Positions 29,857 through 39,049 of a stretch of 64,000 nucleotides of DNA are shown piece by piece. This DNA is from Pseudomonas akapageensis (GTDB lineage Bacteria > Pseudomonadota > Gammaproteobacteria > Pseudomonadales > Pseudomonadaceae), in NCBI RefSeq assembly GCF_011355085.1, contig NZ_VXCP01000002.1, positions 434,001 to 498,000 on the forward strand, written 5' to 3'. A program made the position numbers and the translations under genes. Within the stretch, counting starts at the first letter, position 1. Each line of letters starts with the position of its first letter. The notes beneath the pieces were generated by a model. The model was not told the DNA's origin. It ran no database searches and was given only the letters and a program-made list of their open reading frames with translations.

Positions 29857-30198
29857 ATGAGCACAGCCTATCAAGAAGACATCAGCAGCAGTGTGCTGCG
29901 CCGCATGAAAGAGGGCGGTTTCGATTTTGCCCGTATTCACCCTATCGAGTTCTATGCCGTGTTCCCTGACGAGGAGCGCGCGCGCAGGGCTGCGGGCAAA
30001 TTCCGTGGAGAGTCATTGAGTGCGCAAGTCAGTGAACGGGATGACGGCGGTTGGAATCTTGAGCTCAGCAAGGTGATGTATGCCACCTATGGCGGCATTG
30101 GTGAGTTCGAGCAGGACTTCGAGGCCAAGATTGCTCCCTTTGGCGGGGAGATCGAAGGTTGGGGTGTCAAGCAGGAGGTCAGGCGCCCCCTGGCATGA
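29857..30198 (+). CDS. rraB: Regulator of RNase E activity B (RraB-like)
   Basis: A 113-residue acidic protein of the RraB/DUF1260 family, which in E. coli binds the C-terminal scaffold of RNase E and slows RNA decay. Family features: MKEGGFDFARIHPIEFYAVF at the front, the mixed beta part ending ELSKVMYATYGGIGEFEQDF, and the C-terminal FGGEIEGWGVKQ. GAGGAGGA precedes the ATG. A small hairpin (CCTGCCTTG / CAAGGCGGG near 29788-29808) lies in the region before it. Confidence 0.85.
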   Translation: MSTAYQEDISSSVLRRMKEGGFDFARIHPIEFYAVFPDEERARRAAGKFRGESLSAQVSERDDGGWNLELSKVMYATYGGIGEFEQDFEAKIAPFGGEIEGWGVKQEVRRPLA

Positions 30199-30220
30199 CA
30201 TGAATAGATTCACCGGCTTG

Positions 30221-30247
30221 CATCGGCTGACCTCGGGTCGGCCGATG
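30221..30247 (+). terminator. Hairpin after rraB
   Basis: Twelve-base stem CATCGGCTGACC / GGTCGGCCGATG with loop TCG, 22 bases after the rraB stop. Only a short T-run follows, so it may slow rather than fully stop transcription. Confidence 0.6.
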
Positions 30248-30261
30248 TCGTTTTGGGGCCA

Positions 30262-30287
30262 TAAAAAAGGCCACCGAAGCGGTGGCC
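30262..30287 (-). terminator. Minus-strand rho-independent terminator with no annotated upstream gene
   Basis: Stem GGCCACCG / CGGTGGCC with a three-base loop. Six A bases at 30263-30268 give a T-run on the minus strand only. No minus-strand protein gene lies upstream, so it points to an unannotated transcript. Confidence 0.65.
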
Positions 30288-30385
30288 GAAAGGGAAGAGC
30301 GCAGAATGTGTTTGCCGTAGGAGCTTGATCCTTGGCGTGCATGAATTATCGGCAATTTCCCACGTGCAGAGAAATCAACTCTGAC

Positions 30386-30391
30386 TATGCT
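30386..30391 (+). promoter_or_regulatory. Candidate -10 box of the small RNA (sigma-S-like)
   Basis: TATGCT in the context CTGACTATGCTGG, close to the CTATACT pattern of sigma-S promoters, with no good -35 box. A start point about 30398 is expected. Confidence 0.4.
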
Positions 30392-30397
30392 GGTGAT

Positions 30398-30488
30398 AGC
30401 AAGAACCTGTGTCCAGACGCTTCGCAATGGAGCGTTGCCCTTGGCAGTTGGCTCAATCACCGCACAGCAATGGTGCGGCGTTTTTTTT
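30398..30488 (+). ncRNA. Candidate small regulatory RNA, about 90 nt
   Basis: A stretch without coding potential that folds into three successive hairpins: ACGCT/AGCGT (30417-30435), TGCC/GGCA (30436-30446), and a terminator CCGCAC/GTGCGG (30460-30478) followed by eight T. A sigma-S-like -10 box lies just upstream. The 5' boundary is inferred. It might be a known Pseudomonas small RNA such as RgsA, but I cannot confirm a match from memory. Confidence 0.55.
30459..30488 (+). terminator. Rho-independent terminator, also an imperfect NtrC-type dyad
   Basis: Stem CCGCAC (30460-30465) / GTGCGG (30473-30478), loop AGCAATG, then T8. The 17 bases 30461-30477 also resemble the NtrC site TGCACCA-N3-TGGTGCA: one half is a perfect TGGTGC and the other is GCACAG. 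Confidence 0.75.
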
Positions 30489-30497
30489 GATATCCGG

Positions 30498-30508
30498 TCA
30501 ACTAATTG
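30498..30508 (+). promoter_or_regulatory. IHF-like core site
   Basis: TCAA-N4-TTG matches the core of the IHF consensus in an AT-rich stretch, placed between the upstream dyad and the sigma-54 promoter, as in many enhancer-dependent promoters. Two outer consensus positions do not match. Confidence 0.35.
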
Positions 30509-30529
30509 AATTTAAAGCGTTTATGCCGA

Positions 30530-30544
30530 TGGCACGGGCCTTGC
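30530..30544 (+). promoter_or_regulatory. Sigma-54 (RpoN) promoter of the ATP-grasp operon
   Basis: TGGCACGGGCCTTGC: the -24 GG and -12 GC are exactly 10 bases apart, and TGGCACG-N4-TTGC matches the consensus completely. Transcription would start near 30556. The ribosome site AAGGAG and the ATG at 30580 follow at once. Confidence 0.75.
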
Positions 30545-30579
30545 GAAGGCCTTGATGTCCAGGTGACAAGGAGTACGGC

Positions 30580-31989
30580 ATGATCCGCACCTTTTTTGAT
30601 GAAATGTACGCTGCAGACGGCCAGGTCCGTCCGCATTATCGAGAGTTCGCCCGTTGGTTGGCCGAGACGCCAGAGGAGTTGCTGGCACAACGGCGACGTG
30701 AGGCCGACCTGTTGTTTCATCGCGCCGGGATAACTTTCACGCTCTATGGTGACGAGCAGGGCACTGAACGGCTGATTCCTTTCGATACGATTCCACGCAG
30801 TATTCCGGCCAGTGAATGGCGGGTGGTCGAGCGCGGGTGTATCCAGAGGGTCAAGGCCTTGAACCTGTTTCTGACTGATCTTTACCATGATCAGCGGATC
30901 ATCAAGGCCGGGATCATCCCGGCCGAGCAGGTTCTGGCCAATGAGCAGTACCAGTTGGCAATGCAGGGCTTGAACCTGCATCGCGACATCTATTCACACA
31001 TCTCCGGTGTCGATCTGGTGCGCGACGGCGATGGCACCTATTACGTGCTTGAAGACAACTTGCGCACACCCAGCGGTGTCAGCTACATGCTCGAAGACCG
31101 CAAGATGATGATGCGCCTGTTTCCCGAGTTGTTTGCTGCCCAGCGTATCGCGCCGATCGACCACTACCCGAACCTGTTGCTCGACACCCTGAAAAGCTCG
31201 AGCCCGCTGGATAACCCCAGTGTCGTCGTCCTGACACCGGGGCGGTTCAACAGTGCTTTTTTCGAACATGCATTCCTGGCGCGGGAAATGGGTGTCGAAC
31301 TGGTGGAAGGCGCCGACCTGTTCGTGCGCGACGATCACGTGTTCATGCGCACCACGGACGGGCCCAAGCCGGTGGATGTGATTTACCGGCGCCTGGACGA
31401 TGCCTTCCTCGACCCGCTGGCATTCAATCCGCAATCGATGCTCGGCGTACCCGGGCTGCTGTCGGCCTATCGCTGCGGCAATGTGGTGCTGGCCAACGCC
31501 ATCGGCACCGGAGTGGCCGATGACAAGTCGGTCTATCCCTATGTCACCGACATGATCCGCTTCTACCTGGACGAAGAACCCATTCTCAAGAACGTGCCGA
31601 CCTGGCAATGCCGCAAGCCCGAGGAACTGTCCCATGTGCTGGCAAACCTGCCGGAGCTGGTAGTCAAGGAAACCCAGGGGTCGGGCGGCTACGGGATGCT
31701 GGTCGGGCCGGCTGCCACTCGCGCCGAGATCGAGGCATTCGCCGCTCGGATCAAGGCCAGGCCCAACGCCTACATTGCCCAACCGACCCTGTCGCTGTCG
31801 ACCTGTCCGACCTTTGTCGAAAACGGTATCGCACCACGCCATATCGATCTGCGCCCCTTTGTCCTGACGGGTCGCGAAACCCGTGTGGTGCCCGGCGGCC
31901 TGACCCGCGTCGCGCTGCGGGAGGGGTCCCTGGTGGTCAACTCCTCCCAGGGGGGCGGAACCAAGGACACCTGGGTGGTCGAGGATTAA
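30580..31989 (+). CDS. Circularly permuted ATP-grasp protein (type 2; DUF404/DUF407)
   Basis: A 469-residue enzyme of the circularly permuted ATP-grasp type 2 family, expected to form an amide or peptide bond with ATP. Conserved blocks are present: YYVLEDNLRTPSGVSYMLED near 155, VDVIYRRLDD near 270, ELVVKETQGSGGYGMLVGPA near 365 (nucleotide-binding) and RHIDLRPFVLTG near 425. It is first of a three-gene operon with an alpha-E protein (13 bases on) and a transglutaminase-like protein. Genome studies predict peptide or amino-acid ligation by this set, but no substrate is established. It is driven by the sigma-54 promoter. Confidence 0.92.
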   Translation: MIRTFFDEMYAADGQVRPHYREFARWLAETPEELLAQRRREADLLFHRAGITFTLYGDEQGTERLIPFDTIPRSIPASEWRVVERGCIQRVKALNLFLTDLYHDQRIIKAGIIPAEQVLANEQYQLAMQGLNLHRDIYSHISGVDLVRDGDGTYYVLEDNLRTPSGVSYMLEDRKMMMRLFPELFAAQRIAPIDHYPNLLLDTLKSSSPLDNPSVVVLTPGRFNSAFFEHAFLAREMGVELVEGADLFVRDDHVFMRTTDGPKPVDVIYRRLDDAFLDPLAFNPQSMLGVPGLLSAYRCGNVVLANAIGTGVADDKSVYPYVTDMIRFYLDEEPILKNVPTWQCRKPEELSHVLANLPELVVKETQGSGGYGMLVGPAATRAEIEAFAARIKARPNAYIAQPTLSLSTCPTFVENGIAPRHIDLRPFVLTGRETRVVPGGLTRVALREGSLVVNSSQGGGTKDTWVVED

Positions 31990-33743: not shown

Positions 33744-33767
33744 TTAAAGCAGTGGCGGCTGGCGCCG

Positions 33768-33789
33768 CATCGCTGGCTTGCCAGCGATG
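33768..33789. repeat. Minimal REP hairpin (collapsed family 1 unit)
   Basis: A perfect 22-base palindrome, CATCGCTGGC followed directly by TTGCCAGCGATG: the outer halves of a REPIN joined with the inner CTCCCACAG part lost. It lies between the convergent transglutaminase and cytochrome genes. Confidence 0.8.
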
Positions 33790-33792
33790 GGG

Positions 33793-38959: not shown

Positions 38960-39049
38960 GGTGAAGTGTCCGAGTGGCTGAAGGAGCACGCCTGGAAAGT
39001 GTGTATACAGGAAACTGTATCAAGGGTTCGAATCCCTTCTTCACCGCCA
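38960..39049 (+). tRNA. tRNA-Ser (anticodon GGA)
   Basis: A 90-base tRNA with a long variable arm. Acceptor stem GGTGAAG (38960-38966) pairs with CTTCACC (39039-39045), then discriminator G and encoded CCA (39047-39049). The anticodon stem CACGC/GTGTG encloses the loop CTGGAAA with anticodon GGA at 38994-38996. The T loop GGTTCGAATCC is intact. It reads UCC and UCU codons. Confidence 0.96.

Follow-up and report, generated by a model that had tools for sequence, protein, structure and literature searches.

The genes considered here have been described as part of the Anbu operon, in which genes for an ATP-grasp protein, an alpha-E protein and a transglutaminase are followed by anbu as the fourth gene (PMC6376114, PMC5666114). 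The literature on this gene set, as represented in the reports cited here, centres on Anbu, a putative ancestor of the proteasome. A published member is that of P. putida, where nitrogen limitation raised the expression of PP_2688, PP_2687 and PP_2686 in the wild type by 14.66-, 11.04- and 12.61-fold, respectively, an induction that the authors assigned to NtrB/NtrC, with a value of 1.12-fold for the Anbu gene, PP_2685 (PMC7801951). In other data, PP_2685 does rise, with a log2 value of 4.44 for nitrate versus ammonium (PMC8050072), and the first of two columns in PMC3325844 gives 11.1 for PP2685, 6.6 for PP2686 and 7.1 for PP2687. A fragment of about 200-300 bp from upstream of PP_2688 conferred a 3.7-fold reporter induction on nitrogen depletion, and the PP_2685 and glnK fragments behaved as nitrogen-agnostic in the same reporter (PMC8050072). 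The induction of Anbu is credited to Hervas et al. 2008 by both PMC6376114 and PMC5666114, and the latter describes the expression of the operon as unchanged under various other conditions.

The window analysed here is a stretch of 64,000 nt from Pseudomonas akapageensis (GCF_011355085.1, NZ_VXCP01000002.1, positions 434,001 to 498,000 of the forward strand). An earlier note on this DNA had described an ATP-grasp/alpha-E/transglutaminase operon behind a sigma-54 promoter and had called it an enzyme set of unknown purpose. Pfam matches bear out the three genes, which stand in that order (Table 1), and the description can now be sharpened, as the set corresponds to an Anbu operon lacking anbu. 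The best PDB match of the ATP-grasp protein is 3n6x, a putative glutathionylspermidine synthase (E 3.1e-209). No solved-structure relative of the alpha-E protein was found at E 0.1, and NCBIfam offers a name for neither of these two proteins. The upstream neighbour of the operon is rraB. Our literature searches returned no experimental study of the window operon. Elsewhere in the window, a tRNA gene at 38960-39046 is the sole Rfam match above the gathering score.

Table 1. Features of the promoter region and of the operon in the window; counts over 81 regions refer to the window plus the best 80 of at least 587 relatives.
Feature	Position	Strand	Basis or remark
Conserved upstream block GAAATCAACTCTGACTATGCTGGTGATAG	30370..30400		identity 0.88 versus 0.61 for 30300-30369
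Second, weaker NtrC-like dyad, GC-N11-GC	30419..30433		43 bp upstream of the main core, about four helical turns
Predicted NtrC enhancer core GCACAGCAATGGTGC, GCAC-N6-GGTGC	30462..30476		arms invariant in 81/81
T8 tract after the dyad, terminator-like in appearance	30481..30488	+	not conserved
Predicted IHF site ATTCAATTAGTTG	30499..30511	-	12/13 to the consensus WATCAANNNNTTR
Sigma-54 -24/-12 element TGGCACGGGCCTTGC	30530..30544	+	exact TGGCAC-N5-TTGC, GG-N10-GC spacing; mean column identity 0.99
Predicted transcription start	30556	+	from the position of the element, about 12 bp past the -12 GC
Shine-Dalgarno-like AAGGAG ahead of the first gene	30568..30573	+	sequence; columns conserved in the alignment
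Circularly permuted ATP-grasp protein, 469 aa	30580..31989	+	Pfam PF14403 and PF04174
Alpha-E protein, 316 aa	32002..32952	+	Pfam PF04168, E 1.2e-94
Transglutaminase-like protein, 264 aa	32949..33743	+	Pfam PF08379 and PF01841
49-bp gap, transglutaminase gene to convergent cytochrome c gene	33744..33792		place occupied by anbu in L204, L205, L226 (same genus) and L254, L255, L256 (same family, other genus)

Positions 30419-30544 very probably form a nitrogen-responsive promoter of the sigma-54/NtrC type, predicted from the sequence to switch on the three-gene operon when nitrogen is scarce. The parts follow each other in the usual order for such a promoter, NtrC core, IHF-type site and -24/-12 element, just as the earlier note had proposed. 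The -24/-12 element sits on the plus strand with the exact GG-N10-GC spacing claimed for it, and the imperfect NtrC-type dyad placed at 30461-30477 is equally real, its core now being located one position further in at either end. The IHF-like core put at 30498-30508 is genuine and conserved too, and needs refinement as to strand, since the minus strand scores at least as well. NtrC recognises a GCAC-N6-GGTGC core, and its sites are often paired on one face of the helix; the core found here has this form.

Single matches of this kind are unremarkable by chance. The exact TGGCAC-N5-TTGC pattern occurs once in the 64-kb window versus 0.36 expected, and 31 of 100 shuffles contain it at least once; GCAC-N6-GGTGC gives four matches at three places versus 1.49 expected, with four or more in 8 of 100 shuffles. 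The question put was therefore the joint conservation of the sites. Across the whole genome, the NtrC pattern is found 133 times versus 45 for the reversed pattern, and a composite search for GCAC-N6-GGTGC followed at 20-80 bp by GG-N8-TTGC retrieved nine matches versus one for a reversed control pattern. One of the eight other composite matches, L118, shows no evident nitrogen gene among its genes. Both regulators are encoded in the genome, with one match to the ntrC model over its curated cut-off and one Sigma54_DBD match. As an internal control, the region upstream of the genome's own glnK, a well-known NtrC target, was found to carry an NtrC-type dyad together with a GG-N10-GC element.

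The main evidence comes from an alignment of the window with 80 Pseudomonas orthologues from named organisms, the best 80 of at least 587 relatives, in which no two of the 81 upstream regions are identical. The check that had been suggested for the promoter, namely whether orthologues conserve the -24/-12 element, is passed throughout this set: TGGC[A/G]C-N5-TTGC is kept in 81/81 regions, its start lying between -49 and -52 relative to the ATG. Among 3754 control 400-bp stretches of the same loci, 11 contained the strict pattern, 271 the looser TGG-N8-TTGC and 21 the NtrC core. The distance between the NtrC core and the sigma-54 element, start to start, is 67 bp in 80 of the 81 regions and 68 in the window. 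In addition, a second dyad, defined as GC-N11-GC with at least 4/5 arm letters complementary, accompanies the core in 61/81 (42 bp upstream in 57, 43 in 4) and is absent in the other 20 of these upstream regions. As for the IHF-type site, the minus-strand match reaches 13/13 in 46 and 12/13 in 35 of these best-scoring regions, always starting 31 bp before the TGG (81/81). Within the 60 bp concerned it beats every plus-strand match in 63 regions and ties in 18; when those 60 bp were shuffled, a score of 12 on either strand was reached in 75 of 1620 cases.

Mean column identity over the same set (the window and the best 80 of at least 587 relatives) is 1.00 for the NtrC arms, versus 0.63 for the sequence separating the NtrC and IHF sites and 0.87 for third codon positions at the start of the first gene. 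Parts outside the recognised sites are well conserved too, with 0.92 for 30513-30529 and 0.89 for the leader (30545-30579). At 30537-30551, the -12 element is overlapped by a perfect inverted repeat, GGCCTT/AAGGCC, which is partly retained, by eye, in many relatives and might form a hairpin or serve as a repressor site.

On this prediction, the RNA polymerase carrying sigma-54 would wait in closed form at the -24/-12 element. Phosphorylated NtrC would bind the core and probably also the weaker dyad upstream of it, IHF would bend the DNA at its site, and the ATPase of NtrC would then open the promoter, so that transcription would start near 30556. NtrC binding, activation and the nitrogen signal at the window promoter are what we infer from comparing sequences. 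The enhancer-dependent, probably nitrogen-responsive control put forward in the earlier note gains support from the conservation of the sites and from the induction by nitrogen limitation reported for the Anbu-containing operon of P. putida, a candidate orthologue.

The sites were also followed beyond the alignment. The ATP-grasp protein was matched in 64 of 69 sampled Pseudomonas genomes. The listing of this genus sample holds 75 close copies (at least 84% identity), all 75 of which were examined; L237 and L239 were dropped before the counts, as they represent the same places as L196 and L202, and the gene of L252, one of the rraB-linked copies, is split into two matches, so its position ruler is off. 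Among the rraB-linked copies, which share this setting with the window, the exact sigma-54 element is present in 45/45 and the exact NtrC core in 44/45, the remaining one (L235) having a single mismatch. Copies without rraB (over 65% identity) and without anbu show the sigma-54 element between -45 and -62 in 8/13 and an NtrC core with up to one mismatch in 7/13. For the anbu-bearing copies, and again allowing one mismatch, the figures are 8/8 for the sigma-54 element (3 of them at -45 to -62) and 4/8 for the NtrC core; in a shuffled control, an NtrC core with up to one mismatch appeared in 29 of 1440. Nine genomes harbour an extra copy consisting of the ATP-grasp and alpha-E genes (L212-L214, L216, L217, L219, L220, L222, L224), with no transglutaminase in the fetched stretch. 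All nine of these two-gene copies have a CGGCAC- or TGGCAC-N5-TTGC element 190-208 bp upstream, and no NtrC core with up to one mismatch was found in the stretch searched; as the search ended 300 bp upstream and the sigma-54 element lies at -190 to -208, their NtrC cores could have been missed.

At the level of the order, a match was obtained in 101 of 194 genomes, the best-scoring loci being fetched and L139 (only 56 bp upstream) and L120 (the same place as L171) left out of the count. In this set, which reaches other genera and families, TGGYNY-N5-TTGC lies within 250 bp in 21/27 upstream regions versus 3/580 control stretches. In four of the six regions without the element (L142, L143, L144 and L148, counted as misses), the 400 bp upstream contain an open frame longer than 100 codons, so the promoter may lie further up. 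An NtrC-like core accompanies the sigma-54 element in 9 of the 21 loci that have one. The 67-bp distance recurs in L121, from the same genus, and in three loci from a different genus of the family, L122, L123 and L124, of which L123 has a single mismatch in its core.

Among the alternatives, the one that survives best, though we hold it to be unlikely, is that the main expression comes from another promoter (e.g., of the sigma-70 type) at 30370-30400, the sigma-54 parts being additive. The block at these positions is conserved and includes TATGCT, and in P. putida the operon was still induced in an rpoN mutant: PP_2688 rose 19.61-fold, and PP_2686, PP_2687 and urtA-D were likewise induced (PMC7801951). 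Taken as it stands, this result contradicts sigma-54 dependence. In the same report, however, the transcriptomes of the wild type and the rpoN mutant cluster together, so the result may point to a problem with the mutant; it may reflect either that or another route of induction. Against a promoter in the block, a consensus scan gave no sigma-70-like match at 30370-30400, and conservation of the block falls short of that of the sigma-54 and NtrC parts. The block also contains CTATGCTG, and a similar GGCTATGCTG is found upstream of the NtrC core of the genome's own glnK (L253).

A real sigma-54 promoter driven by one or more enhancer-binding proteins other than NtrC appears improbable. Room for such an activator is left by the 107 matches to the ntrC model in this genome, many of them to the receiver domain alone, of which a single one exceeds the cut-off, and by the 21 order-level loci with a sigma-54 element, 12 of which miss an NtrC-like core with the patterns used. 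However, the core kept in all 81 regions (the window and the best 80 of at least 587) fits the NtrC consensus. Moreover, the putative NtrC sites of P. stutzeri are given as GC and GC separated by 11 nt (PMC8443478), and the P. putida genes induced by nitrogen limitation were attributed by their authors to NtrB/NtrC, as noted above.

Instead of an enhancer, the dyad might be an intrinsic terminator that stops readthrough from upstream; this possibility, which had led the earlier note to rate NtrC as the weakest part of its reading, is very unlikely. The window does have a stem, of 6 pairs, followed by the T8 tract, and terminator-like sites number 5 in the scan versus 4.8 in shuffles. However, at least five T within 15 bp after the core are found in only 2/81 regions (the window and L038, among the window and best 80 of at least 587), while the dyad arms are invariant, so the supposedly weakest part is among the best conserved. 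The fixed distance to the sigma-54 element also speaks against a terminator, and rraB has its own inverted repeat (12 nt, 92% complementary, 30221-30247), more than 200 bp upstream of the dyad. The invariant arms, the 67-bp distance and the second dyad support the NtrC reading. The T8 tract had also prompted us to consider a small RNA ending at the dyad, which was rejected, there being no Rfam match above the gathering score at this place and the T-tract not being conserved; on the minus strand of 30150-30650, isrD (E 0.0035) and suhB (E 0.68) matched with scores below gathering. Finally, a functionless chance match, which the frequency of the exact sigma-54 pattern in window shuffles might suggest, is practically negligible and in our view already refuted by the alignment, with the sites kept at fixed spacing in 81/81 (best 80 of at least 587) while the sequence between the NtrC and IHF sites has diverged.

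The anbu gene itself is missing from the operon. Downstream of the transglutaminase gene, the place of anbu is taken by the 49-bp gap before the convergent cytochrome c gene. A search with the Anbu protein gave no match in this genome at E 0.001, and the single PF00227 match, on another contig, is taken to be HslV. Likewise, no anbu remnant was detected at E 0.01 in the window or in L001-L080 (best 80 of at least 587). Of the 69 sampled Pseudomonas genomes, 8 have an anbu match, in each case adjoining the transglutaminase gene, and 56 of the 64 genomes with the ATP-grasp gene gave none. One of those eight matches (L218, genome G249) has an in-frame TGA, so this gene may be decaying. Of 12 further loci, chosen from the order-level list, 11 have anbu directly behind the transglutaminase gene; the chosen loci from outside the genus all have it (11/11), the exception, L262, belonging to the same genus. 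The gene tree is poorly supported (28 of 75 inner branches below 80, with the bootstrap not settled), and the case for loss of anbu therefore rests on shared gene order and outgroup loci rather than on the tree. The simplest and most likely history would be that anbu was lost in place and the promoter stayed.

The genome of P. akapageensis contains a second version of the set (L172, on contig C1, about 46-58 kb), in which a fused ATP-grasp/alpha-E gene lies between two transglutaminase genes, and TGGCACAAGTCTTGC lies about 50 bp upstream of where its first gene probably starts. For comparison, stretches from 20 genomes of the genus sample and from its own genome were used (21 in all); the first gene was found in 18 of them, and L268, L279 and L283, without a match, were dropped before counting. 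A sigma-54 element with up to one mismatch occurs at -49 to -51, by the ruler of the script, in 17/18 loci, and an NtrC-like core with up to one mismatch in 13/18, the core of the own locus having two mismatches. In B. cenocepacia, a cluster with transglutaminase domains, I35_5080-83, has been reported as a joint target of NtrC and sigma-54 under nitrogen limitation; it includes a large transglutaminase gene, as does the second, fused cluster here, and judging by its description it is probably related to this cluster rather than to the window operon (PMC5491218).

If anbu was lost in place and the promoter kept, the task performed under nitrogen starvation is probably that of the ATP-grasp, alpha-E and transglutaminase proteins themselves, and it is likely that the three products work without the Anbu proteasome. 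As a matter of speculation, enzymes of ligase and transglutaminase type induced by nitrogen starvation could make or recycle an amide-linked nitrogen compound, or modify proteins. More tentatively still, and with slightly more doubt than belief, it could be proposed that in most pseudomonads NtrC and sigma-54 drive a self-sufficient ATP-grasp/alpha-E/transglutaminase pathway for an amide-linked nitrogen compound, in which Anbu is dispensable, and that the same control covers the second cluster. If this were true, the whole protein set, second cluster included, would be a nitrogen-starvation module. The promoter type itself is already published for P. putida; what is new is the strength of its conservation, the Anbu-less operon in most of the sampled Pseudomonas and the element of the second cluster. 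Operons that have no anbu still carry a nitrogen-type promoter of fixed geometry, and a conserved sigma-54-type element precedes the second version of the set as well. This offers a testable condition (nitrogen starvation), a usable promoter and a naturally Anbu-free background for tracing the product.

Set against the known systems, the window operon has the gene order of the Anbu operon up to the transglutaminase gene and the same cytochrome c flank as six anbu-bearing loci, but it is devoid of the fourth gene, which was not found elsewhere in this genome either. The P. putida operon PP_2688-PP_2685 (ATP-grasp, alpha-E, transglutaminase, Anbu), compared here by its published description, likewise begins with a circularly permuted ATP-grasp gene, continues with a transglutaminase gene and ends in a proteasome-like gene; PP_2688-2686 are induced by nitrogen limitation and the promoter fragment responds to nitrogen depletion. 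Unlike that operon, which contains Anbu, the one in the window does without anbu and adjoins rraB. With NtrC-activated sigma-54 promoters such as that of glnK, the window promoter shares the dyad upstream of a -24/-12 element, whereas the spacing differs, the arrangement in the window being one strong core with a weaker dyad about four turns upstream.
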